Shown one piece after another: positions 15,968 to 33,334 of a DNA stretch of 33,334 nucleotides. Below the pieces are notes generated by a model that saw only the letters and a list, made by a program, of their open reading frames with translations, did no database searches and was not told the origin of the DNA. A program made the position numbers and the translations under genes. Source of the DNA: Deltaproteobacteria bacterium HGW-Deltaproteobacteria-8 (GTDB taxonomy: Bacteria > Desulfobacterota > Desulfovibrionia > Desulfovibrionales > Desulfovibrionaceae); contig PHAR01000013.1 in NCBI GenBank assembly GCA_002840405.1, positions 1-33,334 on the forward strand. The letters are read 5' to 3'. Each line of letters opens with the position of its first letter. Positions within the stretch are counted from its first letter, which is position 1.

Positions 15968-18529
15968 TTACGGCTGCCTTGTGCGCCAACTTTTGTAAAT
16001 CTCAAACCACCCAACGCTGGTTACACCAGCCAGCACGCATAGGCCGAGGTCCAGGGGCCCAAGCGCATTCAAATGGAGCAGGCTGCGAAGCGATGGGACA
16101 TTGAGCACCAGGCCCAGCATCACCGTCGCACCGCCCACCACCCACCACAGCGCAGCGTTGGGCTCCCGGAACATGGCGACAATGCTGCGGACCCAGGAAC
16201 GATTGGTGAAGATAAGCCCGAGGTTGCCCGCCACCAGGGTGACGAAGACAAAGGAACGCCGCGCGTCCTCCTGCGGCTGGCCAAGGCTCCCCGCCGCCCA
16301 GTACATCAGCAGCAGCGCGGCCAGGACGCCTCCTCCCTGCAGCACGCTGAGGGTCAGCACCCGCGCGTTGAAGAGCCGCTCGTCGGCCTTGCGCGGAGGG
16401 CGGCGCATGATGTCCTTTTCCGCGCCCTCGGCCTCGAAGATGAGCGAGCAGGCCGGGTCGATGATGAGTTCAAGAAACACGATGTGCACCGGCAAGAGCA
16501 AAAGCGGCATGTCGGTGAAGAAGACCGGGATCATGGAAAGCCCGGCGATGGGTACGTGGACGGCCAGGGTGTAGCCCACGGCCTTCTTGATGTTGTCGTA
16601 GATGCGGCGGCCCAGGCGGATGGCCTGCACGATGGAGGAGAAGTCGTCGTCCAGCAGGATCAGGGCCGAGGCCTCACGCGCCACGTCCGTGCCGCGCCCG
16701 CCCATGGCGATGCCGATGTGCGCGGCCTTGAGCGCCGGGGCGTCGTTGACGCCGTCCCCGGTCATGGCCACGATCTCGCCGTTGGCCTTGAGCGCGTTCA
16801 CCAGGCGCAGCTTCTGCTCCGGCACCACGCGGGCGAACACGTCGACCTCCGGAATGCGCCGGGTGAGCATACCGTCGCTCATGTCGTCCAGCTCCGGCCC
16901 GGTGATGACGCCCTCCGCGTTGCGCAGCCCGATCTGCCTGGCGATGCTCCGGGCCGTGTCAGGGTGGTCACCGGTGATCATGATCACCCGGATGCCCGCT
17001 GTGTAGCATTCCTGGATCGTTGCCGGAACAGTGGGCCGGATGGGGTCTTCCAGGCCCACGAGGCCGAGGTACTCAAAGGTGAAGTCGTGCTGTTCGCCGG
17101 GCAGTTGGCCCTTGGACCAATTGGCCCGCGCCACCCCGAGCACGCGCAACCCCTGCCCGGCCATGAGGGCCACCTGCGCGGATATCGCCGCGGTCGGCTC
17201 CGGCCCCAGGTGGCACAGCTCGGCGATGGCCTCCGGTGCGCCCTTGGTGGCAACGGCAAAGGAATCCCCATCCACTGCGCGCCAGACGTGGGTCAGGGCC
17301 AGCAGCTCTGGCGAGAGGGGGTAGTCGCGCACCATGGCCCACTGTTCGTGCCAATGCTCTGTCTTGCCCAGGCGGTTCTCGCCCAGGGTGCGCAAGGCGC
17401 GCTCCATGGGATCGAAGACCTCCTTCTTGCTTGCCAGAACGCCATACTCCAGCAGCGCGTGGAAACTCTCCGGCAGGGTTGCGCCCTGGCTGGCGACGAA
17501 GGTCTGGCCGTCTGCGTGGAGCTGTCGCACAGTCATCTGGTTGAGAGTGAGGGTGCCGGTCTTGTCCGTGCAGAGCACCGTGGCCGCGCCCAGGGTCTCG
17601 ATGGCGGGCATGCGCCGGGTGAGCACGCGGCTGCGGGAGATGCGCCAGGCGCCCAGGGCCAGAAAGATGGTCAGGATGACCGGGAATTCCTCCGGGAGCA
17701 CGGCCATGGCCATGGCGATGCCCGCAAGCAAACCCTGGACCCAGCTTTGCGGCGTATTGCCGCGCGTCAGTGCGTAGGCCACTATCACCACGGAGCACAG
17801 GCCCAGGCCGATGGCGGCCAACTGCTTGACCATGCGGCCCGTCTCGCCCTGAAGCGGCGTATTCTCCTGCTCGATGGTCTGGAGCGCCTTGCCGATCTTG
17901 CCAAGCTCCGTGCGCATGCCGGTGGCCACCACTTCGGCCAGGCCCTGCCCCCTGGTGATGAGCGAGCCAGAGAAGACGTCGGGCAGGTCGTCGCCGCCGG
18001 GCTTGCCGGTCTGGCTGGCCGTCTCGGAACTGGCCTTGCGCACCGGCACAGACTCGCCCGTCAGTAGGGACTCGTCGGCGTAGATGTTGAGCGCCTGGCG
18101 CAGGACTGCGTCCGCCGGGACGCGGTCGCCTTCTGAAAGCAGCAGCAGATCTCCCCGGACCACCTCACGCCCGGCGATGCGCCGCTGCTGGCCGTCGCGC
18201 AGCACCAGGGCGCGGGGGCTGGAAAGGTCGCGCAGGGCGTCCAGAGCCCGCTCGGTGCGCCGCTCCTGCACGATGGTGATGCCCATGACCACGAAGACGA
18301 AGCCCAGGAGCATCAGCGCGTCCGAGAGTTCGCCCATGAGCAGGTACAGGCTGCCGCAGGCCACCAGCAGCAGAAACATGGGTTCGCGCATGACCTCAAG
18401 GGCGATAGAGAACACGCCGCGCCGGGTCCCTTGCGGCATCTCGTTGAAGCCCTCGGCCTGCTGGCGTCGGGTGGCCTCGGCTTCGCTGAGGCCGGTGGCG
18501 TCTGCGGGATCAAACGTCTGGGTAGGCAT
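15968..18529 (-). CDS. P-type cation-transporting ATPase (P2-like)
   Basis: An 853-aa inner-membrane ATP-driven cation pump. Visible motifs in order: actuator TGES at 157-160, M4 signature PEEFP at 279-283, phosphorylation site D322 in DKTGTLT, nucleotide-binding KGAPEA from 429, TGD from 519, hinge GDGVNDAP at 591-598, and six C-terminal hydrophobic helices including LELIIDPACS. The PEEFP motif and layout are those of bacterial calcium/manganese-type P2 ATPases; the ion cannot be fixed from sequence alone. No N-terminal metal-binding CxxC, so it is not a heavy-metal P1B pump. A hairpin separates it from the zinc-ribbon gene upstream. Confidence 0.9.
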   Translation of the reverse strand: MPTQTFDPADATGLSEAEATRRQQAEGFNEMPQGTRRGVFSIALEVMREPMFLLLVACGSLYLLMGELSDALMLLGFVFVVMGITIVQERRTERALDALRDLSSPRALVLRDGQQRRIAGREVVRGDLLLLSEGDRVPADAVLRQALNIYADESLLTGESVPVRKASSETASQTGKPGGDDLPDVFSGSLITRGQGLAEVVATGMRTELGKIGKALQTIEQENTPLQGETGRMVKQLAAIGLGLCSVVIVAYALTRGNTPQSWVQGLLAGIAMAMAVLPEEFPVILTIFLALGAWRISRSRVLTRRMPAIETLGAATVLCTDKTGTLTLNQMTVRQLHADGQTFVASQGATLPESFHALLEYGVLASKKEVFDPMERALRTLGENRLGKTEHWHEQWAMVRDYPLSPELLALTHVWRAVDGDSFAVATKGAPEAIAELCHLGPEPTAAISAQVALMAGQGLRVLGVARANWSKGQLPGEQHDFTFEYLGLVGLEDPIRPTVPATIQECYTAGIRVIMITGDHPDTARSIARQIGLRNAEGVITGPELDDMSDGMLTRRIPEVDVFARVVPEQKLRLVNALKANGEIVAMTGDGVNDAPALKAAHIGIAMGGRGTDVAREASALILLDDDFSSIVQAIRLGRRIYDNIKKAVGYTLAVHVPIAGLSMIPVFFTDMPLLLLPVHIVFLELIIDPACSLIFEAEGAEKDIMRRPPRKADERLFNARVLTLSVLQGGGVLAALLLMYWAAGSLGQPQEDARRSFVFVTLVAGNLGLIFTNRSWVRSIVAMFREPNAALWWVVGGATVMLGLVLNVPSLRSLLHLNALGPLDLGLCVLAGVTSVGWFEIYKSWRTRQP

Positions 18530-20811: not shown

Positions 20812-21501
20812 TTAGCGCAACTCGCGCCCCAGCCAAACCGCCTTGCCGATGATGCGGATGCCATCCACGAGATCGCCGCGAGTGTCGATTTCGAGCGGTG
20901 CGTAAGAATCGTTGCAGCTTTTGAGGATGATCTTGCCGGGCAAGGTGTCCACCATCTTGATGTAGACCAGATCCTCCACGCCGACGGCGAACAGCGATCC
21001 TGGCTGTGGCTGGGTCTGGCTCTGGTCAACCAGCACCACGTCTCCGTGATGTATCTCCGGCTCCATGCTCTCGCCCGCGACACGCATAAGCACCATCATT
21101 GAGGACTGCCCCTTGGTGCTGATCCAGTCGTTCCTGAATCCGTAGCGCTGCTCAGTGACGCCACCAGCCTCAAAGCTCCCTGTACCCGCCGAAAGCCGAG
21201 CTTCCACCAACGGCACGTAGACCATGTCCACGTCGCAGGCGGACTTCTCCCGCGCGACTGACGCAGGGGTGCTGCCAATCTCACGAAGGGTAGAACCCTC
21301 TCCGAACAATAACCAGTTCGCGCTCGTTACATATTTCTCGGCTACCAGCTCAATCCAAGCACCAGGAATCTGCTGGCGTTTGCGCGCAGCAGCAACAGAC
21401 TGAGGCTGTATTCCCAGCATCCTGGCCAACTCGGAATCTGACTTGGCGTTTGTGGCCGCGACAAGGCGAGCCATGCGCTGATCAAATTTCGTCATATCCA
21501 T
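20812..21501 (-). CDS. Lysogeny repressor, CI/LexA type (HTH + S24 peptidase)
   Basis: A 229-aa repressor homologous to the PL one. The HTH region (SVAAARKRQQIPG) is almost identical to PL, as expected if both bind the same operator word. Ser145 (GESMEPEI) and Lys182 (VYIKMVD) are 37 residues apart, with Ala105-Gly106 in LSAGTG as candidate cleavage bond. The linker between domains is different and shorter. GGAG eight bases before ATG 21501 lies inside an operator copy. Because HTHs and operators match, PL and PR are probably homoimmune or partly so. Confidence 0.9.
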   Translation of the reverse strand: MDMTKFDQRMARLVAATNAKSDSELARMLGIQPQSVAAARKRQQIPGAWIELVAEKYVTSANWLLFGEGSTLREIGSTPASVAREKSACDVDMVYVPLVEARLSAGTGSFEAGGVTEQRYGFRNDWISTKGQSSMMVLMRVAGESMEPEIHHGDVVLVDQSQTQPQPGSLFAVGVEDLVYIKMVDTLPGKIILKSCNDSYAPLEIDTRGDLVDGIRIIGKAVWLGRELR

Positions 21502-22184: not shown

Positions 22185-22423
22185 CACCGTTGGAGTGCCG
22201 GGCGGAGCGCCAGAAGGTGCGGTTTCGCATTCGCGAGAACTTGGATCAACGAGGCTTAAGCATGCTGGAGATCGCAAGGCGGGTCAATTTGAACAAGAAC
22301 GTGGTGGTGGAAACCATCGGCGGTGGGCGGAATAACCGCCGCGTGCTGGCGGAGCTTCGCGCGGTGGGAGTTCCTGAGAAGTACCTTTTCGACCCCGATG
22401 TCCTCAAGAATAAGGCTGCTTAA
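22181..22423 (+). CDS. Ner-like HTH early regulator
   Basis: An 80-aa homologue of the PL Ner-like protein, with GLSMLEIARRVNLNKNVVVE as HTH and the shared TIGGGRNNRRVL block. Overlaps the upstream stop by four bases. Followed directly by A, without the two extra genes of PL. Confidence 0.7.
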   Translation: MTPLECRAERQKVRFRIRENLDQRGLSMLEIARRVNLNKNVVVETIGGGRNNRRVLAELRAVGVPEKYLFDPDVLKNKAA

Positions 22424-22439
22424 GGATAGCAGAACTACC

Positions 22440-24599
22440 ATGAACGCAGCCAAGGAAACCTACACATCTTCTGAGCTGGCTCCCGCGCTCGGCGTCACGG
22501 AGCGGGCCATTCAGATCCGCGCCAAGCGCGACTCATGGCCGTTTGAAAAGCGTGTTGGCCGTGGCGGTGGCAATATGTACCCACTCTCCACCCTACCCGA
22601 GGATGTGCGCGCGGCCATCACTCTGGCCCAGGCCAAGGCCATGGAGACCGAGGAGAGCACAGCCCCGAAGGCGCGGGCGCAGGCTGCGGACGTTGTGGTG
22701 CCGGACTGGTCCTGGAACAAGGCCAAGGCGAAGCTCCGGCTGGTGAGCGAATGGCGCAGCTACACCGCGCGCCAGGCCCAGCTCGGGCGGAACGTGAAAG
22801 AGGCCACCGGGGCCTTTCTCTTGGCCTACGAGGCCGGGCAACTGCTGCCCCAGCTGCGCGAGCGGCTCGGCCAGGTGAGCATGCCCACGCTGTACCGCTG
22901 GGACAAGGCCCTGCGCGAGAACGCCCGCGACCTGGAGGCCCTGGCCGACAAACGCGGCGGCTGGGCCAACGGGCTCAAGAAGGGCCTGGGCCAGATTGGT
23001 GAGGACGCCCAGCAGGCCTTTCTGGCGGCCTATCTCCAGCCCAACAAGCCAAGCCTGACCCTGGCCCACCGCGCCATGGCGCTGGTGTTGGAGCGCGCCG
23101 GGCTGCCGGTGCCCAACTACAGCTCTGTGCGCCGGTTTCTGGAGCGCTTCGACTCCTACAACCACGACCTGGTGGTCTTCCAGCGCGAGGGCATGAAGGC
23201 CCTAGACGACAAGGTGGGGCCGTTTCTTTCCCGCGACGACAAGATCCTCCAGGTGGGTGATGTACTGGTCTCCGACGGCCACGTCATGAATTTCCTGGTC
23301 ATCAACCCGGAGACAGGCAAGCCCCAGCGCATGACGCTGGTGGGCTGGGAGGACTGGGCGAGCCGCATGTTCGTCTCCTTCGAGATCATGCCGACAGAGA
23401 ACACCCAGGCCATATCCAGCTCGCTCTTCCGGGCCTGCCAGAACCTGGGGCGCAAGCCGGGGGCCGTGTACCTGGACAACGGCAAGGCCTTTGACAATCA
23501 GTATTTCTCCGGCTCCGCAGACATGGCCGAGCACGACGGCCTGTACCTCTCGCTCGGCATCCATGTGCTGCACTCCATGCCCTACGTTGCCCGCACCAAG
23601 ATCATCGAACGCTGGTGGGGCGACTTTGACCGCCAGTGCTCGCGGCTCATGGACAGCTACGTGGGCGCGAACATCGACGACAAGCCCGCCCACATGCACC
23701 GCAATGAACGCTGGCACAAGGACCGCCATGAGGGCCGGGTGCCGACGCTGGAAGAGGCCAAGCAGGTTGTGGCGGAATTCGCCCGCTGGAAGGCCAACCA
23801 GCCGCACCCCACGCGCCCCCGCACCACGCCGCTTGAGGTGTTCACCGCCGGGCGCGGCCCAGGCTTCAGCGAGGCCGAGCTGGCCGACCTCTCCCGGCAG
23901 TTCCTGTACCGCCGCGAGGTCACTCCACAGCGCTGCCGCATCAAGATGCTGGGCTGCGAGTTCGAGGCCGGGTTCCTCATGGGCATCAACAAGAAGCTCA
24001 TGGCCCACTACTCCTACAGCGATTTGTCGCAGGTGTGGGTCTACGACGAGGGCCGCCTCCTTGGCGTGGCCAAGCCCATCACCACGGTGCATCCGCTGGC
24101 CGCCGTGCTGGGCACGGAATTCGACATGACCCAGCTCAAGGCCAAGCAGAAGGAAAACGCCGCCCTCGTGCGCGGCACGGTGAAGCTGGCCACGCAGATG
24201 CACCAGCAGTTCGGCCCGGCGGCGGCGACCCCGCTTGCCGCCCTGCCGCACATGCAGCCGGTTTCCGAGCGGCGCACGACGTTCATCCCCAAGGCCTCTG
24301 CACGGCCCATGCTGGAGGCCGTGCCGGAGATCACCTCCGAGGAGCGCTCGCAGCTTGAAGCCGTGCGCCAGCGCAGCCTGGAGGCCGCAAAGGCCCGCCC
24401 GGCCTACGCACACCGCGAGCGCTTTGGCAGCCCGCTGGAGCGCTACGCCCACCTTTTCGAGATCGAGGTGGTTCAGGGCATCGCCCTCACGGAAGAGGAC
24501 GCCGCCTGGGCCAGGAAATACGAGCAGGGCGAGGAGTACCGCGAGGTTGCGGCGCTACGCTACGACAAGCTGCGCCGTTTGTACCGCAAGACCGCATAA
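22440..24599 (+). CDS. Mu-type DDE transposase A
   Basis: A 719-aa transposase. Residues 1-65 match the PL protein at about 50 positions (Mu-type DNA-binding domain). The catalytic core is a different lineage, with the DDE triad D279 (VLVSDGH), D346 (YLDNGKAF) and E390 (TKIIERWW). A C-terminal basic/charged region ends at the stop 18 bases before B. ATG 22440 chosen by match to PL. Confidence 0.93.
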   Translation: MNAAKETYTSSELAPALGVTERAIQIRAKRDSWPFEKRVGRGGGNMYPLSTLPEDVRAAITLAQAKAMETEESTAPKARAQAADVVVPDWSWNKAKAKLRLVSEWRSYTARQAQLGRNVKEATGAFLLAYEAGQLLPQLRERLGQVSMPTLYRWDKALRENARDLEALADKRGGWANGLKKGLGQIGEDAQQAFLAAYLQPNKPSLTLAHRAMALVLERAGLPVPNYSSVRRFLERFDSYNHDLVVFQREGMKALDDKVGPFLSRDDKILQVGDVLVSDGHVMNFLVINPETGKPQRMTLVGWEDWASRMFVSFEIMPTENTQAISSSLFRACQNLGRKPGAVYLDNGKAFDNQYFSGSADMAEHDGLYLSLGIHVLHSMPYVARTKIIERWWGDFDRQCSRLMDSYVGANIDDKPAHMHRNERWHKDRHEGRVPTLEEAKQVVAEFARWKANQPHPTRPRTTPLEVFTAGRGPGFSEAELADLSRQFLYRREVTPQRCRIKMLGCEFEAGFLMGINKKLMAHYSYSDLSQVWVYDEGRLLGVAKPITTVHPLAAVLGTEFDMTQLKAKQKENAALVRGTVKLATQMHQQFGPAAATPLAALPHMQPVSERRTTFIPKASARPMLEAVPEITSEERSQLEAVRQRSLEAAKARPAYAHRERFGSPLERYAHLFEIEVVQGIALTEEDAAWARKYEQGEEYREVAALRYDKLRRLYRKTA

Positions 24600-24616: not shown

Positions 24617-25306
24617 ATGCGCAAGGGGATTTTCATCGAAACGGAGAACGTGAACCGGTTCCGGACGGTGATGCGCCAGGCGCTCGACACCGAGCGCGGC
24701 AGGCCGGGCATGGTTTGCGTTTCCAGCCCGGCGGGCCTGGGCAAGAGCCTGGCCGCAGAGCAACACTACGCGCAGCACGGCGGGGTCTACGTGCGCGTGT
24801 GGGAGGGCTGGACCCAGCAGGCCTTCCTGCAAGCCATCTGCTTCGAGCTGACGGGCACCCGCCCGCACGGGGCCGACCGCTGCAAGTGGGCCATCTGCAA
24901 CGCTTTGGCCGACGAGCGCCGGGCCATCTACGTGGATGAGGCCGACCGCCTGAGCATCCAGCGCATCGAGGATCTGCGCGACATCTACGTTTACACCGGC
25001 GTGCCCATTGTGCTCATCGGCGAGCCGGGCCTGCCCACCATGCTCTCGGCCCGCGCCCGTGTGGATGACCGCATCCCCTCCGAGTACCGGGTCGAGTTCA
25101 CCGGCATCAGCTCCACGGATGTGATGCTCTACGCCCAGGAGGCGGCTGGGCTTTCCCTGTCTCCCGAGGCTTGCGCCCAGGTGGCCAAGGCCACCAAGGG
25201 CAACTTCCGGCGCGTCCACAACATGATGCTGAGCCTGGAGCAGGCGGCCCTGGCTGCGGAAACCGTCGAGATCGACGCCGAAATGGTGCGGGGGCTGCGC
25301 GCATGA
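24617..25306 (+). CDS. Transposition protein B, AAA+ ATPase
   Basis: A 229-aa ATPase with Walker A SSPAGLGKS (36-44) and Walker B AIYVDEAD (103-110), then LIGEPGL sensor-like segment. GGGGGAT ribosome site before ATG 24617. Target-DNA delivery factor for A. Low similarity to PL B; A and B appear to have been exchanged together. Confidence 0.88.
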   Translation: MRKGIFIETENVNRFRTVMRQALDTERGRPGMVCVSSPAGLGKSLAAEQHYAQHGGVYVRVWEGWTQQAFLQAICFELTGTRPHGADRCKWAICNALADERRAIYVDEADRLSIQRIEDLRDIYVYTGVPIVLIGEPGLPTMLSARARVDDRIPSEYRVEFTGISSTDVMLYAQEAAGLSLSPEACAQVAKATKGNFRRVHNMMLSLEQAALAAETVEIDAEMVRGLRA

Positions 25307-25932
25307 AGACCTTCGACATGGACCGGCTGCGCGACGTGATCCTGGGACTGTCCGAGGGCGGCACGCGCACCGTCAGCAACGCCCTGTTGTTCCAGACCTG
25401 TGGCCGGACAGATGAGCCGGGCAAGCGCCGCCTGCTGCGGCAGCTCCAGACCATGGTCAACAAGGGCGAGCTGGTGCGCGTGGGACGGGGCGAGCTGCGC
25501 TACGACCCCCAGGCCGCAGCCGCGCGCCACGGCGAGCTGTACCAGAAGATCTGGCGGGCCGTCCGCGCCAAGGCCCCCGGCTTTTCGGCCCCGGATCTGG
25601 CCCTCATCACCGGGGCCGGGGCGAGCCACCTGTGCAAGTACCTGCGCTTTCTGGAAGACGAGGGCCTGGTGCGCCGCCACGGCAAGAGCGGCAACACGCT
25701 GCTCTACGCGGCCACAGGCAAAGCCCGCGAGCGCCGGGAAACCCCTTATCCGCCCCTGGGCATCAATGACCCCTGGGAGACTGAGCGCAACAGCGCCTGC
25801 GCCCTGGTGCGCCTGCTCATGGAACGCGACCCGGCGGACCAGAAGGCAAAGGTCGTCCAGCACTGCAAGACCATCCTGGGCCGGTTCGAGACCCGGACAG
25901 ACAACCGCACAACCAAGGAGGCCACATGTTAG
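25303..25932 (+). CDS. Tandem winged-helix-like protein after B (209 aa)
   Basis: ATG 25303 overlaps the B stop as ATGA. Two winged-helix-like segments: residues about 10-65 (KRRLLRQLQTMVNKGELVRV) and about 75-130 (SAPDLALITGAGASHLCKYL...EDEGLVRRHGK). Positional counterpart of PL 8367-8960. Probably DNA-binding; role unknown. Confidence 0.7.
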   Translation: MKTFDMDRLRDVILGLSEGGTRTVSNALLFQTCGRTDEPGKRRLLRQLQTMVNKGELVRVGRGELRYDPQAAAARHGELYQKIWRAVRAKAPGFSAPDLALITGAGASHLCKYLRFLEDEGLVRRHGKSGNTLLYAATGKARERRETPYPPLGINDPWETERNSACALVRLLMERDPADQKAKVVQHCKTILGRFETRTDNRTTKEATC

Positions 25933-26126: not shown

Positions 26127-27230
26127 ATGCTTGAAGGCTACATGGAGAACGCCCAAGGGCACCAGGTGCCGCTGGCCCAGGTGCAGGAGATCGACAAGGC
26201 CCGGCACGAGCTGGTGATGGAGAAGGTGGCCAAGGTCAAGGCCATGCACGAACTGCTGGCCAAGCTCAAGGCTGAACTCATGGCCGACGTGGGTGCGTTC
26301 GTGTCCCTTTCCGCCGAGCGGTACGGGGCCAGGCTGGGCGGCGAAAAGGGCAACGTGACCCTGTTGTCCTTTGACGGCAAGTTCAAGATCGCCCGCCAGA
26401 TGGCCGAACTCATTACGTTCGACGAGCGTCTCCAGGCGGCCAAGAGCTTGATTGACGAGTGTCTGCGCGACTGGACAAAGGACGCCCGCAGCGAACTCCA
26501 GGCGATCATCGACCAGGCCTTCCAGGTCGACCGCGAAGGCAAAATCTCGACCACCCGCGTCCTTGGCCTGCGCCGCCTGGATATCACCGACGAGCGCTGG
26601 CTCAGGGCCATGCAGGCCATTGGCGACAGCATCCAAGTCACAGGCACCAAGTCTTACGTCCGCGTGTACGAGCGCCAGGACAGCGGGGCCTACACGGCCA
26701 TCCCGCTGGATATGGAACCAGAAACTCGGCACAGTTTACGGCTCGAACGTCAAGCGCGTGGAAGACACGCTGAAGGCCCTGGGCGAGATCGCCACGGACA
26801 CGCTCAAGAGCGGCGGCGAGGTGCCCTTTCCAGCCCTTGGCAAGCTGGTGGTGGTGGCGACCAAGGCGCGCCAGGGCCGCAACCCCAAGACCGGAGCGGC
26901 CATCGAGATCCCGGCGGGCCGGAAGGCGAAGTTCAAGGTGGGCACGGGGTTGACCGAGGCCCTGAAAGGCTAGTGCGAAACCGCCCTGCGGGGCGGTCGT
27001 CCAGGCGTGGCGGCCTGGGCCTGATGAGCAGCCAAATAGAGAACGGAGGTTGGGGACTTGCCCCGAGAACATGGCAGAACGACGCGCTAAATCAGGGTCC
27101 GTTTTGCTCCGAATTGGGAGCAAAGACCGGAAGGGAACCATCCTCGAAATCTACAGCGCCGAGCTGTGGCCGGATCAGCACGGAGCCGACTCCGGGCTAT
27201 ACCGTGTGCGCATCAATGAGCGCTGGGTAA
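26127..27230 (+). CDS. DUF3164 protein fused out of frame to HU-region sequence
   Basis: The first 195 or so residues are nearly identical to the PL DUF3164 protein through IPLDM. At about 26714 the normal last codons and stop are missing, and the frame runs on through the HU gene out of phase and into the next gene, giving a 367-aa reading frame with an Arg/Gly-rich non-native tail. The DUF3164 part could still fold. The break corresponds to loss of about 800 bases compared with PL. Confidence 0.75.
   Translation: MLEGYMENAQGHQVPLAQVQEIDKARHELVMEKVAKVKAMHELLAKLKAELMADVGAFVSLSAERYGARLGGEKGNVTLLSFDGKFKIARQMAELITFDERLQAAKSLIDECLRDWTKDARSELQAIIDQAFQVDREGKISTTRVLGLRRLDITDERWLRAMQAIGDSIQVTGTKSYVRVYERQDSGAYTAIPLDMEPETRHSLRLERQARGRHAEGPGRDRHGHAQERRRGALSSPWQAGGGGDQGAPGPQPQDRSGHRDPGGPEGEVQGGHGVDRGPERLVRNRPAGRSSRRGGLGLMSSQIENGGWGLAPRTWQNDALNQGPFCSELGAKTGREPSSKSTAPSCGRISTEPTPGYTVCASMSAG
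26716..26973 (+). pseudogene. HU-like DNA-bending gene lacking its start
   Basis: Encodes NQKLGTVYGSNVKRVEDTLK through to GRNPKTGAAIEIPAGRK and the normal C-terminus, but the first ten or so codons and the start codon are gone. Only a GTG at about 26758 could restart in frame, which would lack the first helix. So PR probably depends on host or PL HU. Confidence 0.75.
26980..27018 (+). terminator. Double hairpin after the HU remnant
   Basis: ACCGCCC/GGGCGGT (26980-26997) and CCAGGC/GCCTGG (27001-27018), conserved with PL 6466-6504. Without a T-tract; attenuator or processing site is possible. Confidence 0.5.
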
Positions 27231-27538: not shown

Positions 27539-27993
27539 CATTCGACACCCGCCGATCGCTGCTGGCCAAGGTCCACATCGCCAAGAAGGACCTGGGCTTG
27601 GATGATGCCGCCTACCGCGCGATCCTGGCCAGGCATGGCGTGGAATCCTCCGGAGCCTTGGACATGAAGGGCCTGGAGAAGCTGCTCACGCACATGGAGA
27701 AGCTGGGCTGGGTGAGCACGCCGAAGCAAGCCAAGCCGCGCATCAACGCGGAGCACGTCGCCATCCCGGACGGCACGCCCCTCGCCCGGCAGAAGCGCTA
27801 CGCGCTCGCCCTGGCCAAGGCCCTTGGCTGGAACCTGGTGGGCCTGCAAAAGCGCATCAAGCAGCAGTTCGGGGTGGAGAACATCATCTGGCTGGCTGAC
27901 CAGGCGTCGTTGCAGACGCTCATCAAGGACATGACCAACCGTTGCCGCAAGAAGGGCATTGACCCCAGCCCGGACAAGACGGGGGCGGCGTGA
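27535..27993 (+). CDS. Mu Gp16-like protein (DUF1018)
   Basis: A 152-aa homologue of PL 3502-3960, closely similar throughout with the LGLDDAAYRAILARHGV signature. ATG 27535 overlaps the previous stop (ATGA). Function in Mu unknown. Confidence 0.85.
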   Translation: MTFDTRRSLLAKVHIAKKDLGLDDAAYRAILARHGVESSGALDMKGLEKLLTHMEKLGWVSTPKQAKPRINAEHVAIPDGTPLARQKRYALALAKALGWNLVGLQKRIKQQFGVENIIWLADQASLQTLIKDMTNRCRKKGIDPSPDKTGAA

Positions 27994-28352
27994 CGGACGC
28001 CGAGGCCGACACCGAGATACAGGAGCCGTCATCCATTCCGGAGCTGCTCCAGGCCATCTGCGCCCGCTACGGCACGGTGCATCGGTTCTGCCGCCGCCAC
28101 AAGGGCAGGCTGAACCGCTCGACGGTCTACATGGTCCTGGCCGGAACCTACCCCGGCTCAAAGGCCGCCCAGGCGCTGCGCATCGCCGAGGCCCTGGGCC
28201 TGGCGCAAGGGCAGGAGGCGCGGGTCCTGGCGGCCATCAAGGGTGTGGCCTGCGCGCGCTGCTCGGTGAAGGCGCGGCCCTGCGGGCGGTGTGATGAACT
28301 TTTCAAGGCGCAGGCGGCGGCAGCGCTTCACGCCATGCCGAAGGGACAATGA
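27990..28352 (+). CDS. HTH protein with C-terminal zinc-binding cysteines
   Basis: A 120-aa homologue of PL 3155-3505: HTH in the centre, CARC-x6-CGRC at the tail. Overlaps Gp16 by four bases. Confidence 0.75.
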   Translation: MTDAEADTEIQEPSSIPELLQAICARYGTVHRFCRRHKGRLNRSTVYMVLAGTYPGSKAAQALRIAEALGLAQGQEARVLAAIKGVACARCSVKARPCGRCDELFKAQAAAALHAMPKGQ

Positions 28353-28369
28353 GAACGCCGCCATTCTCA
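28350..28369 (+). terminator. Small hairpin after the HTH-zinc gene
   Basis: TGAGAA (28350-28355) and TTCTCA (28364-28369) form a short stem followed by TTTTAC. The stem covers the gene stop. PL has an imperfect version. Weak terminator or attenuator. Confidence 0.35.
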
Positions 28370-28403
28370 TTTTACTTGCAACAAACAGTGGAGGGCAACG
28401 GCC

Positions 28404-28991
28404 ATGAAAACTATCATTGACGACATCGTGAAGTTGGTGGCCAATGGCTGGCGACCGTACCGAGGTCACGTAGAAAACAGAGTCTACGACGAGGTCAGCT
28501 GTCCCCACGCCCCACTCAGCGATGACGTCAAGGCGGCGGGAGCCAAGCGCGGCAAAGCCGTGCCCAGCTGGTTTTGCCGGGCGGACATCTTCTTGTGCCT
28601 GGGGTGCGGCAGGCGTTGCAGCTTGAACCGCCCCAAGGGCTTCCAAGCCCCCTTGCCTATCAAGTACCCCAACAGTCAGAAAACGCCTTACACCCTCACG
28701 CCCCAGGAGATGGTGACCAAGCTCCGACTGTTGACCGTGAACCAGGCCGCCTATTGCCTCAGGCCGCCGGGGTCAAGGCCGCATGGCAACTGGCCAAGGA
28801 ACGCGGCGGGGGTCGGGCCTACATCCCCACGCCCGAGGCCCTGCATGACCGACATTGGCTGGTACAGGCTGTTGGTCTGGAGGCGGCGAAGGCAATCGCA
28901 AACGCTCTGGGCAGCGGTGAGGTGGAGGTGCCTCTTGGCCCCTTCACAGGCAACCGGGCTCAGGTCTGGGCCGCCATTGAACGAGGCTTGA
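28404..28991 (+). CDS. Middle-region phage protein, C-terminal part probably non-native
   Basis: Starts MKTIIDDIVKLVANGWRPYR with GGAGGG upstream, and contains CRAD-x3-CLGCGRRC, a probable zinc site. After about residue 110 comes LTVNQAAYCL, the beginning of the HTH that is complete in PL, after which the frame breaks off into sequence that belongs to the Mor-like gene read out of phase. The native protein or proteins therefore end before about 28760. Confidence 0.5.
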   Translation: MKTIIDDIVKLVANGWRPYRGHVENRVYDEVSCPHAPLSDDVKAAGAKRGKAVPSWFCRADIFLCLGCGRRCSLNRPKGFQAPLPIKYPNSQKTPYTLTPQEMVTKLRLLTVNQAAYCLRPPGSRPHGNWPRNAAGVGPTSPRPRPCMTDIGWYRLLVWRRRRQSQTLWAAVRWRCLLAPSQATGLRSGPPLNEA

Positions 28992-29116
28992 ACGCGGGTT
29001 TATCCGTGGAGCAGGCCGCGCGCCAAGTGGGGGTGACGGCCAGGACGGTGAGGAGACATAAGAGCGGGGGAGCGGCGGGAGAGACCGCAGGGTGGTGCAA
29101 GCTGCCTGGGGTATAG
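28753..29116 (+). CDS. Mor-like middle-operon activator, N-terminus apparently lost
   Basis: The frame encodes AAWQLAKERGGGRAYIPTPE and, at its end, SVEQAARQVGVTARTVRRHK, the beta-strand plus HTH layout of the Mor/C transcription-activator family of Mu-like phages. In Mu, Mor switches on middle transcription leading to late genes. A start is not obvious: TTG 28753 is the nearest candidate, and the upstream part belongs to a different gene, so the N-terminal dimerisation region may be deleted. Position after Gp16 is right for Mor. PL has no equivalent. Confidence 0.55.
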
Positions 29117-29135
29117 TCATATCAGCATGATTGGC

Positions 29136-29165
29136 TTGACAATAAACGATACAGGGAGGAATAGT
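29136..29165 (+). promoter_or_regulatory. Candidate promoter of the cargo cassette
   Basis: A consensus TTGACA (29136-29141) followed after 18 bases by AATAGT (29160-29165), in AT-rich DNA upstream of the 349-aa gene. Suggests expression from the prophage independent of the lytic programme. Confidence 0.5.
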
Positions 29166-29220
29166 GAAATTGATCGTAAAATATCATGTCTAAAATCCTG
29201 GCAGCCAACAGGGGTACGTT

Positions 29221-30270
29221 ATGTCAAGGAAACCGGCATCTGTAGTATACCGTCGTTTTAATCACACGGAACACGCAAATGGAAATAGCTTGGAGTTGCT
29301 CATTCGCACTGCGATGGACAAGACTCCAGATTCTGCAAATCATAAGCTAAAAGAACGATATAAATTTAGAATATTAAAGCGCACAGACGATAGCGTTCTC
29401 GCAAATATTTACATTGATTCTGGAGAATATGTTTTTGGTGACATTACTCAAATTACACAAGATGAAATGCAAGGACTTCTCGACAACAGCAAAGACGATG
29501 CAGCCTTCGCGGACATTGAACAATACGAAAAGCCGGACGATAAGGATTTCATACGGTCACTGATGTATTGGATGGTAAAAGGTGACCATTGCTTTATTAT
29601 ACAGTCGCACTCTCTGCGTGCTGACTCAGCGGAAGAGTATTTTAATTGGGTAGTTAATGACAAAGCAAAAGTGTTACAGAATAGTTGTCCAATTGTTCTC
29701 GCTTCCAAGTTTGATGCTTCATCAGTTGGTGGAGATATTCAGGATATACAAGAAATAATTGTAGGCGGCACAGTTGCCCATCAACATGGAGCAACAGCAT
29801 TGCAGATTGAGACACATGAAGCAGAGACATTAGGATCAATTGAGCGTAGTCTCCAGACTGTAAAGAGTAAAGCACAGAAAGTATTAGAGGCATTGTTCAG
29901 TGATACGGCAGTTGTCGATAAGATTCTTAGCCAGATACCAGAAGATAGTTCTCTATCTGTCAATGTACACATCGGCTACAGAACAAAAAAGAAAAAATCG
30001 AGCCGTGAGATTTTGAAAAACGTTGAAGTTGGACTGCGACATCTTCCTGACAATCAGTTGCAGGTCCGAGGCAAAGACGGTAAGCGCTCTCCCGATGGCA
30101 CTATCCGGTTACAGCACCCGGTGAGCATAAAATGTGTACTGGTTGGGGAAAAAGATATGCAGCGCTCAACAGGCAGGCTTGACCATACCGATGTACTGCG
30201 AGCAATGCTCGAAGCGTACGAGGTATTTAGAAACAATGGTAAAATTACTGACGACATTTCAGAAGGCTAG
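29221..30270 (+). CDS. Soluble component of a Rex-like two-gene cargo system
   Basis: A 349-aa protein with no signal peptide or membrane helix; ATG 29221 with AGGGG upstream. It is encoded by AT-rich DNA unlike the phage backbone. No family is recognised with certainty. Charged, mixed alpha/beta; a hydrophobic strand region (WMVKGDHCFIIQSHSLRAD) in the first half and a Lys-rich segment (YRTKKKKSSREILK) later. Its stop overlaps the next gene, a four-helix membrane protein. A cytosolic protein followed by a four-helix membrane partner, expressed from a prophage, is the layout of lambda RexA-RexB (superinfection exclusion). This functional idea is inference. Confidence 0.6.
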   Translation: MSRKPASVVYRRFNHTEHANGNSLELLIRTAMDKTPDSANHKLKERYKFRILKRTDDSVLANIYIDSGEYVFGDITQITQDEMQGLLDNSKDDAAFADIEQYEKPDDKDFIRSLMYWMVKGDHCFIIQSHSLRADSAEEYFNWVVNDKAKVLQNSCPIVLASKFDASSVGGDIQDIQEIIVGGTVAHQHGATALQIETHEAETLGSIERSLQTVKSKAQKVLEALFSDTAVVDKILSQIPEDSSLSVNVHIGYRTKKKKSSREILKNVEVGLRHLPDNQLQVRGKDGKRSPDGTIRLQHPVSIKCVLVGEKDMQRSTGRLDHTDVLRAMLEAYEVFRNNGKITDDISEG

Positions 30271-30883
30271 GCTCCCTAGTTACTTAGTGCAACTGGCTGC
30301 TCCCGTTGTTGCTGCTTTTGCAGCATACTCGGGTATGCCACTTGAGGTCTGGGATGGGATTGCTAATGGTCTTCTTGCGTTCCTCGGCCTTCTCGTCGCT
30401 GCACTTGTACAAGTAATTTCAATTACAGCAAGTTTTGGCCATCCTCAATCCTTGCCTTCTCCCAAAATAAAGAGGCTAATCGTTGCGCTTGAGCTACAGC
30501 AAAGGTTATGGCTTGCAATGCTGTGCATTGCGTTTTTTTCTGCGGTATTAGTAGTTTTTGGAACTGCAATTGCCAAGCACGGACAAGAAGTTATCCAAGA
30601 ACATTCGATTCGTAGAACTCTTGCACCTTGGGCCAGTGCACTGATTGCTTTTTCTTTGACATTTCTTGTCATCAGATCTGTATTAATTATCCCTGGGATA
30701 TTAAGCCTTCAGAAATTAAAAGGGCAGCTTGACCTCGAGACAGCAAAACAGCGAGAACGTTTTTTCAGACCTGCTCTCTCACCTGAGTGCAATATGCGAA
30801 ACATACCATCCGTTGTGCCTGAGAATTTCGGGAAAAAAGTTTATCCCATCGATACGGTCCAATCCACAGAATCTAAGGATTGA
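30236..30883 (+). CDS. Four-helix membrane partner of the 349-aa cargo protein
   Basis: A 215-aa inner-membrane protein. Helices at about 16-34, 41-63, 91-112 and 129-156, with a cytoplasmic-looking charged C-terminal tail. ATG 30236 overlaps the upstream gene by 35 bases, a strong sign of co-expression. Comparable in topology to RexB (four helices, membrane-depolarising channel), though somewhat longer and without visible sequence similarity. Effector role is inferred. Confidence 0.6.
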   Translation: MVKLLTTFQKARLPSYLVQLAAPVVAAFAAYSGMPLEVWDGIANGLLAFLGLLVAALVQVISITASFGHPQSLPSPKIKRLIVALELQQRLWLAMLCIAFFSAVLVVFGTAIAKHGQEVIQEHSIRRTLAPWASALIAFSLTFLVIRSVLIIPGILSLQKLKGQLDLETAKQRERFFRPALSPECNMRNIPSVVPENFGKKVYPIDTVQSTESKD

Positions 30884-30970
30884 CGCCCCCTCCCCGCACG
30901 TGCCAAACACCCGCATACTGCCCCCCCCCCCACGCCCCTAGCACTTGCCCACGTCAGAGCGCAGCCTCTA
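30880..30970 (+). repeat. 91-bp direct repeat, copy 1
   Basis: Aligns without gaps to 31878-31968 (offset 998 bases). It begins at the stop codon of the 215-aa gene. An 11-base C run (30921-30931) replaces the mixed sequence found in copy 2. No coding function is evident. Confidence 0.7.
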
Positions 30971-31147
30971 AGCCGTACGTTGCCATATATGCCCGCTGGC
31001 GGGCCTCACGGCCCGCACCTTGCGGCGCAAGGGCGGAGTGGCGGTCGGAGAGAAGGGGGGAGCAAGCTGCCGTTAGACTTCTGGGCCTTGACCATTCGCC
31101 AAAAGGGAAATAAGTGACTGGTAATAACGCTTTTTTGTGGGGCTGTG

Positions 31148-31837
31148 ATGTTCAAGAGACAGAGAAGGTTTGGCCGGTCAAAGAGAACCAAGCGCAAAAA
31201 TGTAACGAATGACTTTTTACGTCAACTCTACCTCGACACGAGAAAGTCATATCTCGCCACGCAGTGCGAGCAATCGAACCTGAGAGATAAATATATCTTG
31301 ACCTTGTCGGCGGCGGCCCTCGCCCTGTCGATAACATACATCGAAAAAATAGCTCCCCTTGGTGAAGCGATTTGGGTGCCATTGTTAATATTTTCATGGG
31401 TCCTTTTCGCGTTGCCCCTTCTCTTCACTGTCTTTTCATTCCACTACACGGTTGATTCTTACAACGATTTCCTAAATCAGTTAGATGGAAAGTTCGATGC
31501 TGGAGAAGAATTGGAAGGACTTAGCTCTCCGTTAACCAAAAGAGTTGACACCTTGAACCGTTTGTCAGTGTGTATTTTTGCGGCTGGAATTTTGGCATTC
31601 AGCCTTTTTGCTGCTGTTAATATCTTGCAGAGGTCACCGGCGCAGCCTTTTTTAAACCAGGAGGGAACAATGAGCGAGAAGAAACCAACACAGCCAACAC
31701 GGCCACCGCAATCACCACCGAAGCCATCACCGGGACGTGATGGAGGTCTCGGACGCGACTCCGGGATTGAGAAGAAGGGCGGCGTCAATGAGGGGATGCC
31801 CCCTCGCAACCCGCCATCCTCTGGACCAAAGAAGTAG
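31148..31837 (+). CDS. Three-helix membrane protein with proline-rich tail
   Basis: A 229-aa protein from ATG 31148. Basic N-terminus, an amphipathic helix (DFLRQLYLDTRKSYLATQ), then helices at about 47-63, 72-98 and 139-161, and a tail from residue 175 rich in Pro, Gly and Lys (KPTQPTRPPQSPPKP). Family not recognised; small multi-helix proteins of this sort occur as effectors in phage-defence systems, which is only a suggestion here. An in-frame start with a strong ribosome site lies before the tail. A terminator-like hairpin follows. Confidence 0.6.
   Translation: MFKRQRRFGRSKRTKRKNVTNDFLRQLYLDTRKSYLATQCEQSNLRDKYILTLSAAALALSITYIEKIAPLGEAIWVPLLIFSWVLFALPLLFTVFSFHYTVDSYNDFLNQLDGKFDAGEELEGLSSPLTKRVDTLNRLSVCIFAAGILAFSLFAAVNILQRSPAQPFLNQEGTMSEKKPTQPTRPPQSPPKPSPGRDGGLGRDSGIEKKGGVNEGMPPRNPPSSGPKK
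31670..31837 (+). CDS. Internal in-frame start giving a 55-aa proline-rich peptide
   Basis: AGGAGGG at 31659-31665 precedes ATG 31670 in the frame of the membrane protein, so the proline-rich tail (MSEKKPTQPTRPPQSPPKP...) could be made as a separate soluble peptide. Alternatively, two genes became fused. The site is stronger than that of the full-length gene. Confidence 0.5.
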   Translation: MSEKKPTQPTRPPQSPPKPSPGRDGGLGRDSGIEKKGGVNEGMPPRNPPSSGPKK

Positions 31838-31847
31838 CTTGAATCAG

Positions 31848-31877
31848 GGGGGGGCTTCCATCGCAGGGAGCTCCCCC
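31848..31877 (+). terminator. G/C-rich hairpin after the proline-tail gene
   Basis: Arms 31848-31859 and 31866-31877 pair with two wobbles around a six-base loop, ten bases after the stop. Only TT follows, so termination strength is uncertain. Confidence 0.4.
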
Positions 31878-31968
31878 TTGACTCCCCCGCCCAGCACATG
31901 CCAAATATCCGCATACTGCCCAAATCCCCACGCCCCTGACATCTGTCCGCGTTAGAGCGCGGCCCCTG
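31878..31968 (+). repeat. 91-bp direct repeat, copy 2
   Basis: Second copy of the element at 30880, lying after the second cargo gene. Most positions agree, for example TGCCAAA, CCGCATACTG and ACGCCCCT are conserved. Marks the end of the cargo block before the lysis genes. Confidence 0.7.
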
Positions 31969-32081
31969 CCAACGTAGTCTCCACCACGGATGCGGCGCTT
32001 CGCCGCCTCAACCCCTCCCGCCTCCTCCCGGCCAGCGCCAAGCCGGGGGGAGGCACCGGAGGAGAACCGTGGAGACTCGAC

Positions 32082-32534
32082 ATGCGACACATCAACCGCC
32101 AGGGCCTGGACCTGATCCTCGTCAGTGAGGAGTTGCGCCTGGAGGCCTACCGTTGCCCGGCTGGCGTTTGGACCATCGGCTGGGGCCATACCGGGCCTGA
32201 CGTTTACCCCGGTCTGGTCATCACCGAGGCCCTGGCGATTCTGTTTAAGCAGGCTGACCTCGAACGCTTCGAGGCCGCTGTTGAGAATGCGCTCGAAGTC
32301 CCTGTCACAGGCAATCAGTTCTCTGCGCTTGTCTCCTTCGCCTTCAACGTTGGGGATGAAGCCTTCCGTGACTCGACCCTGCTCAACAAGCTGAACACCG
32401 GCGACATCAAGGGTGCGGCGGCGGAGTTCAAGCGCTGGGTGCACTCAAAGGGCCGCCTCCAGCCTGGCCTGGTGACCCGCCGCGCAGCCGAGCGCGAGCT
32501 GTTCCTGACACCTGGCGACGGAGATCCCGCATGA
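32082..32534 (+). CDS. GH24 phage lysozyme (endolysin)
   Basis: A 150-aa muramidase. The catalytic pattern E16-x8-C25-x5-T31 is visible, with TIGWGHT and, later, FSALVSFAFNVG and R-R-x-AE-REL motifs of the T4/P21-type family. The middle catalytic residue is Cys instead of Asp, a known variant in this family. No signal-anchor is seen, so export would need the adjacent holin. GGAGGAGAACC upstream supports ATG 32082. Replaces the transglycosylase of PL. Confidence 0.88.
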   Translation: MRHINRQGLDLILVSEELRLEAYRCPAGVWTIGWGHTGPDVYPGLVITEALAILFKQADLERFEAAVENALEVPVTGNQFSALVSFAFNVGDEAFRDSTLLNKLNTGDIKGAAAEFKRWVHSKGRLQPGLVTRRAAERELFLTPGDGDPA

Positions 32535-32794
32535 TCCTCCCGCGCGCCTTCAATTCCAGTCCCGTGCCGACCGAGGCCCACACCGCCCTGGTGCTGGCCG
32601 CCTTCATCGCTCTCGTGACCTTCCAGACCGTTGCCTTGTGGAAAGGTCAGGAGTTCAGCGCAGCCGCCTTTGGCGAGGCGCTGGGCATCATCCTGGGCGG
32701 CGGGGGCGTGGCCGCGCTGGGCCAAAGCTACCTCACCCGCGCGCGCGGGCAGATAACCGGCGGCAACGTCCGCCCCGACAACCCGGACAAGTAG
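32531..32794 (+). CDS. Small membrane protein, putative holin
   Basis: An 87-aa protein; ATG 32531 overlaps the lysozyme stop (ATGA). One helix at about 18-37, then a Gly-rich hydrophobic segment (ALGIILGGGGVAALG) that may be a second helix, and a polar tail. Holin function inferred from position between lysozyme and spanins. Confidence 0.6.
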   Translation: MILPRAFNSSPVPTEAHTALVLAAFIALVTFQTVALWKGQEFSAAAFGEALGIILGGGGVAALGQSYLTRARGQITGGNVRPDNPDK

Positions 32795-32803
32795 GAGGCA
32801 CCT

Positions 32804-33334
32804 GTGGACCTGACCACCCTCGCATCAAAACCCGGCGCGAAGCTGGCTCTTGGCCTTGGCGGCGCTTTGCTTGTGCTGCTGCTCTGCCTGGCCTGCGCCT
32901 GGGGCGGCTACCGCCACGGGTTCACCACGGCCACGGACAAGGGCGATGCCAAGTACGCCAAGCTGGAGGCCGCACAAGAGGCCGCCAACCGCCTGGCCAG
33001 CGACACCGCCCGGCGCATCGTGGACGCCGAGGTCATCCGCCGCGACAAGCTGGCCGAGGAGTTGGCCGACGCCCGCACAACCATTGCGGCCCAGGGCCGC
33101 GCAATCACCAACCGGAGGATTGAAGATGCGTCGCGCTCTGTTGTTGCTGTTGATGGCCATTGCACTTTCGGCCCTGGCTGGGTGGGGCTGTACAATGAGT
33201 CCTGGGGCTTCGGCCACGGCGATCCAGCCGGTCCCGCCGCCGCCCCCGGCCCTGGTGGAGAAGCCGGAGCAATACCGACCGCTCAAGCCGGGGAGTTTCG
33301 ACAAGGCGGAGTGACCCCGGAGGATATCCAGGTG
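32804..33334 (+). CDS. Inner-membrane spanin subunit (Rz-like), 3' end cut by window edge
   Basis: GTG 32804 with AGGAGG upstream, open for 177 codons to the window end. N-terminal helix at about 18-37 (LGGALLVLLLCLACAW), then an Ala/Glu/Arg-rich coiled-coil region. Homologue of the PL gene at 1-537. The final GGAGGA followed by GTG at the very end could be the ribosome site and start of the next gene. Confidence 0.75.
   Translation, partial: MDLTTLASKPGAKLALGLGGALLVLLLCLACAWGGYRHGFTTATDKGDAKYAKLEAAQEAANRLASDTARRIVDAEVIRRDKLAEELADARTTIAAQGRAITNRRIEDASRSVVAVDGHCTFGPGWVGLYNESWGFGHGDPAGPAAAPGPGGEAGAIPTAQAGEFRQGGVTPEDIQV
33126..33314 (+). CDS. Outer-membrane spanin lipoprotein (Rz1-like), nested
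   Basis: A 62-aa lipoprotein-like product in a second frame of the i-spanin gene, with Cys22 after the signal region and a run of five prolines. GGAGG before ATG 33126. Nearly identical to PL 21-209. Confidence 0.75.
   Translation: MRRALLLLLMAIALSALAGWGCTMSPGASATAIQPVPPPPPALVEKPEQYRPLKPGSFDKAE

Follow-up and report, generated by a model that had tools for sequence, protein, structure and literature searches.

The RexA-RexB pair of bacteriophage lambda was the first abortive-infection system tied to anti-phage defence (PMC12894663). Lambda RexA is regarded as a sensor of infection that opens RexB, a protein of four helices (PMC6426596); activation of the pair by T4 rII infection is given as still unexplained, and five RexAB-like systems are described (PMC12894663). 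A divergent Rex pair, RexABpp (PP_5643-PP_5644), was reported in 2026 from prophage P1 of Pseudomonas putida. RexABpp gives phage defence, its RexA binds DNA, and overexpression of RexA arrests growth in a RexB-dependent manner, with membrane damage in part of the cells (PMC12894663). Prophage exclusion was shown experimentally for two other pairs of a soluble and a four-helix membrane protein, Sbash gp30/gp31 and CarolAnn gp44/gp43 (PMC6426596, PMC6426606), both of which require the two genes (PMC12894663). Phage Butters has a Rex-like pair with the opposite division of roles, in which the effector is the soluble protein (PMC12894663). The present analysis concerns two adjacent genes, A and B, of Deltaproteobacteria bacterium HGW-Deltaproteobacteria-8. 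The window, i.e. the whole stretch of DNA analysed (33,334 nucleotides, PHAR01000013.1), is the entire contig C9 of the 3.5-Mb genome. The pair is probably a RexAB-type phage-exclusion module, carried as cargo of a Mu-like prophage. The analysis yielded the two genes, their near-invariable pairing and their prophage setting, together with predictions of a RexA fold for A and of four helices for B. The two genes are as follows (aa, amino acids).

29221-30270, + strand, gene A: predicted RexA-fold soluble protein of 349 aa, phrog_3482, the proposed infection sensor.
30236-30883, + strand, gene B: predicted four-helix membrane protein of 215 aa, the proposed membrane effector, RexB-like in role.

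Like lambda rexA-rexB, the pair has a soluble gene followed by a membrane gene, a predicted RexA fold in the first protein, and some relatives located behind cI. It differs from the lambda pair in the absence of significant sequence similarity, in length (RexA 279 aa and RexB 144 aa against 349 and 215 aa) and in spacing, the lambda genes being 15 bases apart whereas the frames of A and B share 35 bases. B measures 215 aa from its ATG; the longest open reading frame (ORF), with a GTG start, comprises 249 aa. RexABpp, compared by description only, has the same anatomy, although it lies near cI, and the window pair occupies the interval from regulator to lysis genes of a Mu-like prophage. RexABpp was reported to have no BLAST similarity to RexA and to be linked to it by HHpred (PMC12894663); such similarity is therefore not required for the RexAB kind. 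The profile of window A against RexA, unlike the HHpred link of RexABpp, is not significant. The Sbash pair, likewise set beside A and B by description only, has its own promoter, and the CarolAnn genes overlap by 26 bases (PMC6426596, PMC6426606); no sequence link was found between CarolAnn gp44 and A. The initial annotation had described two ORFs of 349 and 215 aa overlapping by 35 bases, within an AT-rich cassette whose order, topology and prophage location parallel those of lambda rexA-rexB. Both ORFs are present, and the parallel is borne out by the predicted fold, the pairing and the relatives behind repressors. The guanine-plus-cytosine content (GC) is 0.423 in A and 0.443 in B against 0.626 in the window, and at third codon positions 0.38 and 0.37 against 0.87 in the prophage transposase. 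These low values confirm the AT-richness and fit acquired cargo.

Gene A is a member of PHROG 3482, a family of unknown function (phrog_3482, E 1.7e-44, positions 7-343 of 344). Its structure was predicted with AlphaFold2 from an alignment of 32 sequences, all from the window or from the loci of relatives, with 31 of the 32 non-redundant relatives joining window A (all but L166) and 30 joining window B (all but L117 and L166). Among five models of A, the best reached a mean predicted local distance difference test (pLDDT) of 68.8 and a predicted template modelling (TM) score of 0.69; mean pLDDT of the other four ranged from 67.3 to 58.9. When the model was compared by Foldseek with 350,542 PDB chains, as the initial annotation had proposed, a single chain passed E<=0.001: lambda RexA, 8twq_B (E 6.1e-6, probability 1.00, 361 alignment columns including gaps, target 279 residues). 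No metabolic protein appeared at that threshold, and the next chain had an E of 0.055 and a probability of 0.09. The training data of AlphaFold2 are presumably older than the 2024 release of 8twq, and the match would thus not be a memory of that entry. In the viral library BFVD the top match was a 'recombination-associated protein' of Hafnia phage Enc34 (E 8.3e-3, probability 0.82), not significant alone. The function of the recombination-associated protein RdgC is not known to involve a membrane partner. RexA and RdgC are described as having a common fold (PMC11077077). By prediction, from a model of moderate quality, the soluble first protein has this two-domain, RdgC-like fold of RexA.

A and B form a two-gene unit in which the pairing is near-invariable. 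A relative of A was present in 172 of the 173 loci collected, many of which are one contig fetched twice, and these gave 61 distinct A ORFs, mostly enteric and Acinetobacter and related to one another rather than independent cases. Four of these are shorter than 300 aa (L086, L106, L121, L130), so some are broken or cut. A gene for a membrane protein, called by a hydropathy threshold, follows A within -35 to +90 bases in 58 of the 61; the partner has four hydrophobic segments in 40 and three in 18. In the three exceptions, L077, L114 and L121, the contig does not reach far enough downstream, and in L121 the A frame ends early as well. Recounted over A genes with at least 450 bases downstream, the partner is found in 58 of 59, and the 59th (L114) has 456 bases, shorter than a B gene requires. 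A membrane partner followed none of 88 control ORFs of the same low-GC loci (GC up to 0.55); these controls were soluble ORFs chosen mechanically (at least 200 aa, fewer than two hydrophobic segments, 450 bases downstream), and some are possibly not genes. The co-occurrence elsewhere for which the initial annotation had asked is thereby documented, and the window itself shows a downstream gene for a predicted four-helix membrane protein, as is characteristic of RexAB-type pairs. Distances among A proteins and among B proteins are correlated (r = 0.94 for 31 A and 31 B proteins; the largest value in 2000 permutations was 0.34). In one related genome (G057) both genes have open relatives, 53% identical for A and 44% for B. 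Open relatives of both genes in other elements indicate that the pair is more than chance ORFs.

A model of action can be proposed by analogy with lambda RexAB and RexABpp. From these two systems it is inferred that A dimerises, binds DNA and activates B, and that the membrane is damaged and phages are excluded. A would be a two-domain RexA-fold protein, probably a dimer, that binds DNA without sequence preference. On infection by a second phage, A would sense a phage-specific DNA-protein state or a protein and would activate B. B, a predicted four-helix protein of the inner membrane and probably an oligomer, would then open or damage the membrane, so that growth would halt and the infection would be aborted. 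The 35-base overlap may couple translation of the two genes and help to hold the ratio of A to B, which is important in known Rex systems. The assignment of A as sensor and B as membrane effector follows the majority of Rex pairs; given the reversed roles in Butters, this order is not certain here.

Two related Mu-like prophages, partial and in opposite orientation, make up parts of the window, and the pair lies in the right one, between a middle regulator and the lysis genes, as the initial annotation had placed it. The genes listed here indicate the setting of a temperate phage; the list also gives a promoter-like site.

20812-21501, - strand: CI-like repressor of the right prophage (phrog_4, E 2.7e-40).
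22323-24599: Mu-type transposase of the right prophage (phrog_310, E 6.9e-111).
28574-29116, + strand: Mor-like middle/late transcription activator of the Mu-like prophage, flanking the pair (phrog_836, E 4.6e-17).
29136-29165, + strand: weak candidate sigma-70 promoter TTGACA-18-AATAGT, matching 10 of 12 consensus positions.
32082-32534, + strand: endolysin of the lysis region, flanking the pair (phrog_7, E 6.7e-55).

The genomic context was read for the window, G057, E. coli phage Perceval, the Acinetobacter phages phi1_092021 and Ab1656-2, Klebsiella plasmid pKPTCM2-4, Shigella phage SfIV and a further related genome (G084). In Perceval (PERCE_43/42, L002 3797-5347) the pair directly follows the CI repressor, which is the position of rexA-rexB in lambda, and in the two Acinetobacter phages it lies behind the repressor with one small ORF between. 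In pKPTCM2-4, a plasmid with phage genes, and in SfIV (gp49/48) it is located between the Q antiterminator and the holin, on the opposite strand; SfIV gp48, the B protein, is just 108 aa long, and its gene adjoins that of an IS1 transposase. The pair of G084 is divergent and belongs to a second Mu-like prophage, where a transglycosylase gene is close by (matches to Mu Gp27, rve and SLT); its A protein is recognized by the phrog profile (E 1.6e-14) and has no meaningful BLASTP similarity to window A. The exception to the temperate-phage location is G057, where the pair lies about 240 bases from a tRNA-Leu gene and inspection by eye of the ORFs of at least 200 aa within approximately 13 kb around it revealed no phage gene. 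These positions bear on a second reading, in which the pair is RexA-like in fold and serves mainly to tune the lysis-lysogeny switch of its own prophage, A binding DNA and B restraining A, with exclusion as a by-product. Lambda RexA was reported to bias the bistable switch and RexB to antagonize it, with exclusion perhaps a by-product (PMC11077077), and the places next to the repressor in Perceval and the Acinetobacter phages would suit such a role. A distance of about 7.7 kb between the pair and the CI-like repressor in the window, the opposite-strand position between Q and holin, and the tRNA-Leu site of G057 all argue against it, and a primary role in the switch is considered unlikely.

Several results weigh against a RexAB-type exclusion module. 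The A model is moderate in quality, with residues 183-215 under pLDDT 50, and its comparison with RexA gave TM-scores of 0.33/0.39 and a root-mean-square deviation of 17.9, so that the two are not superposable as one body. BFVD contained nothing at E<=0.001 for the A model, and no Rex-named protein was among the matches listed (50 of 620). The profile of A was not significant against the single lambda RexA (E 0.088), against four lambda-type RexA sequences (E 0.061, probability 0.9%, short) or against 13 RexA-type sequences with plasmid-borne relatives included (E 0.22, probability 0.3%). In the alignment with the 13 sequences, R219 and K221 of RexA stand opposite R283 and K285 of A; the equivalents of the latter are both kept in G057 and not in the enteric and Acinetobacter relatives. 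The B structure matched no PDB chain at E<=0.001, and no sequence link between B and RexB was found. DNA binding by RexA was reported not to correlate with exclusion (PMC11077077), and the literature searched held no report of exclusion by any phrog_3482 member. The low superposition is read as a rotation of the two domains; RexA is closed in the crystal, and rotation of its globular domains into an open form has been proposed (PMC11077077). The alignment with the 13 sequences begins at the helix that precedes the dimerisation strand of RexA and passes through the dimerisation domain to the C-terminal helix, in the order expected. Joint replacement of R219 and K221 abolishes DNA binding by RexA (PMC11077077); the correspondence with R283 and K285, taken from an alignment that is not significant, is a lead only. 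A further reading holds that the fold match is due to chance or is generic, and that A does something else, to which the moderate model, the low TM-scores and the viral library without a significant match lend some colour. That the sole chain out of 350,542 to pass E 0.001 belongs to a protein with a matching partner gene and genome position, and that the viral library is headed by a protein named as the known structural relative of RexA, makes a spurious match highly improbable.

The AlphaFold2 model of B (mean pLDDT 80.8) has four long helices, at residues 13-32, 36-65, 76-118 and 122-177, in accordance with the four helices claimed initially; a plain hydropathy scan of window B gave three hydrophobic segments. 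Matches of B in the PDB at E 0.1 or worse were to helical proteins, including NINJ1 (E about 1), and were not used. The likeness of B to RexB, as modelled, is one of place and helix number, no more. Alternatively, B might serve the lysis module as its holin or as an accessory to one, A being an unrelated neighbour. The B protein of Ab1656-2 is annotated 'holin-x', one of seven B proteins gave a weak Holin-X match (E 0.088), and the window pair lies near lysis genes. However, the two genes stay together in settings of several kinds, that behind cI among them, the records of the Klebsiella plasmid and of SfIV have their own annotated holin beside the pair and on the other strand, and the membrane partner is missing from only one of the 59 A genes countable above, at the L114 contig end; scarcely any weight is therefore given to a holin. 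A known defence system of another kind, such as Kiwa (KwaA membrane, KwaB soluble), can practically be dismissed: window B alone of seven B proteins weakly matched KwaA in PADLOC (E 0.038, 11.9 bits) and one of the seven matched a '4TM' effector profile (E 0.0014), which we take to be that of a CBASS effector, while none of the seven A proteins, and hence no KwaB, gave any PADLOC match at E<=5, the PDB fold search gave RexA alone at E<=0.001, and the gene order is the reverse of kwaA-kwaB.

That A and B resemble neither Rex nor a named defence family recognizably, as had been stated initially, agrees with the searches of profile libraries. Neither protein had an acceptable match in Pfam, NCBIfam or PADLOC; for the relatives, Pfam and PADLOC were scanned with seven A and seven B proteins. 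Candidates that were set aside because they are not common to the members are DUF7669 for A (E 0.18), LapA in two of seven A proteins (best E 0.00075), and DUF3169 (E 0.0028) and seven other families, each in one of seven B proteins. Among sequences of solved structures A matched nothing at E<=5, and B matched four unrelated chains at E 0.23 or worse, which were rejected. A tblastn search located relatives of A in 6 of 50,697 phage records (22.5-25.2% identical), in 8 of 72,556 plasmid records (23.2-33.3% identical, the highest covering 23% of the length only) and in 2 of 149 related genomes, the genome of the window counted and G057 being the other. The Perceval and Acinetobacter phage proteins are 22-25% identical to window A, and SfIV gp49 was reached through the Perceval protein, to which it is 52.6% identical. 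The phrog profile detected the family in 3 of 297 related genomes, again with that of the window counted; the family is thus uncommon in this lineage and scattered within it. Two scans of viral contigs produced 122 and 128 relatives, and the 80 best from each were retained; further such scans gave one relative with P0001 alone and three with an Azospirillum protein as query, and a scan of genome contigs with a narrow pattern gave one new locus, from Rhizobiales. Family members are annotated in their records as hypothetical, transmembrane, holin-x or 'DefenseFinder protein'. The last label was given by one depositor to the phi1_092021 relative, so that an annotation pipeline may already see the family. 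In the literature searched, from which subscription journals are mostly outside coverage, no title or abstract opening named the phrog_3482 family Rex-like; the work on phage Fc02 deals with other exclusion genes (PMC9936078).

Two other groups of Rex-related genes were encountered. The DUF4747 domain has been linked in print to RexA, Sbash gp30 and CarolAnn gp44. Its profile matched none of the seven A proteins at E<=1 and nothing in the genome of the window. DUF4747 proteins occur in 2 of 59 related genomes, both of one genus (L177 1471-2962 in G002 and L178 789-2298 in G007); each gene is directly followed by an ORF of 204-211 aa that appears hydrophobic by eye, and these pairs are possibly a second Rex-like family in the lineage. 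Relatives of RexA itself, with 24-27% identity and followed by a gene of 145 aa, were observed on Col-type plasmids of 3.3-5.2 kb from E. coli, Yersinia ruckeri and Citrobacter (L200 101-1382, L203 775-2033, L204 775-2033), where the pair takes up a large share of the plasmid.

With regard to expression, the initial annotation had credited the cassette with its own consensus-like promoter. The site at 29136 is plausible but weak. Six promoter-like sites were counted in 28900-32100 against 3.1 +/- 1.8 in shuffled sequences, a number within two standard deviations of the expectation from AT-richness, and no site of this kind was found upstream of the A relative in L007, the closest relative. The same annotation held that the left prophage carries different cargo at this place. 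The right and left prophages align at 91.0% (27547-28537 with 3948-2970) and 87.6% (32836-33334 with 498-1), and between these blocks, in 28538-32835, no match was found at E<=1e-8, which agrees with the claim; the unshared stretch, however, extends beyond the pair and takes in both the Mor-like gene and the endolysin. The AT-rich island between the latter two holds A, B and a third gene at 31145-31837. This third gene encodes a protein of 230 aa with hydrophobic segments and a proline-rich tail and has no relative in the phage collection. Relatives occur in 2 of 98 other genomes (G011, 44% identical with internal stops, and G111, a weak match); both lie outside the three genomes in which the pair family was detected. 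On this distribution the third gene was ruled out as a part of the system.

The contig starts (1-498) and ends (32836-33334) inside one repeat of both prophages, 87.6% identical, as expected for an assembly that stops at a repeat. Viral contig L005 is 99.98-100% identical to the right prophage (segments concerned: 28574-29116 and 28404-28991 of the window, 2986-3896 of L005). About 195 bases of L005 near 28757, comprising the end of one small gene and the start of Mor, are absent from the window, whose Mor-like gene lacks its 5' part relative to L005; a further stretch of about 65 bases is absent near 26715, and the left prophage is without a different stretch of about 194 bases close to the 28757 gap. 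In the window the middle regulator is possibly broken, or else the missing stretches may come from assembly; there are longer copies with an open frame. An ORF at 25171-25932 gave a partial match to the Ren-like exclusion protein family phrog_142 (E 7.6e-6) and a stronger match to an unknown phrog. Between the prophages, at 15968-18529 on the minus strand, lies a gene for an 853-aa protein that matches the phrog ATPase family phrog_12316 (E 1.7e-140), perhaps a host gene.

The initial annotation regarded the pair as a candidate for an undescribed exclusion system. The RexAB kind is already well known, and a divergent member, RexABpp, has been reported (PMC12894663); what appears new is a family divergent in sequence and without a label in the libraries searched, and to that extent the claim stands. 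On balance, PHROG 3482 and its membrane partner appear to form a large branch of the Rex superfamily that carries no label so far, a single mobile exclusion cassette that escaped Pfam, PADLOC and NCBIfam since only the fold is conserved. Its places of settlement would be lambda-type immunity regions, the interval from Q to holin, that from regulator to lysis genes in transposable Mu-like phages, and the neighbourhood of a chromosomal tRNA gene, and it would have spread over Gammaproteobacteria, Alphaproteobacteria and the lineage of the window. If the fold link is true, an unlabelled family present in phages and phage-like elements of E. coli, Shigella, Klebsiella and Acinetobacter would offer natural variants in which the trigger, the contact between A and B and the membrane effect can be compared, and would supply a missing profile to the libraries used for finding defence systems. 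Through the Perceval relative, the family is directly testable in laboratory K-12.

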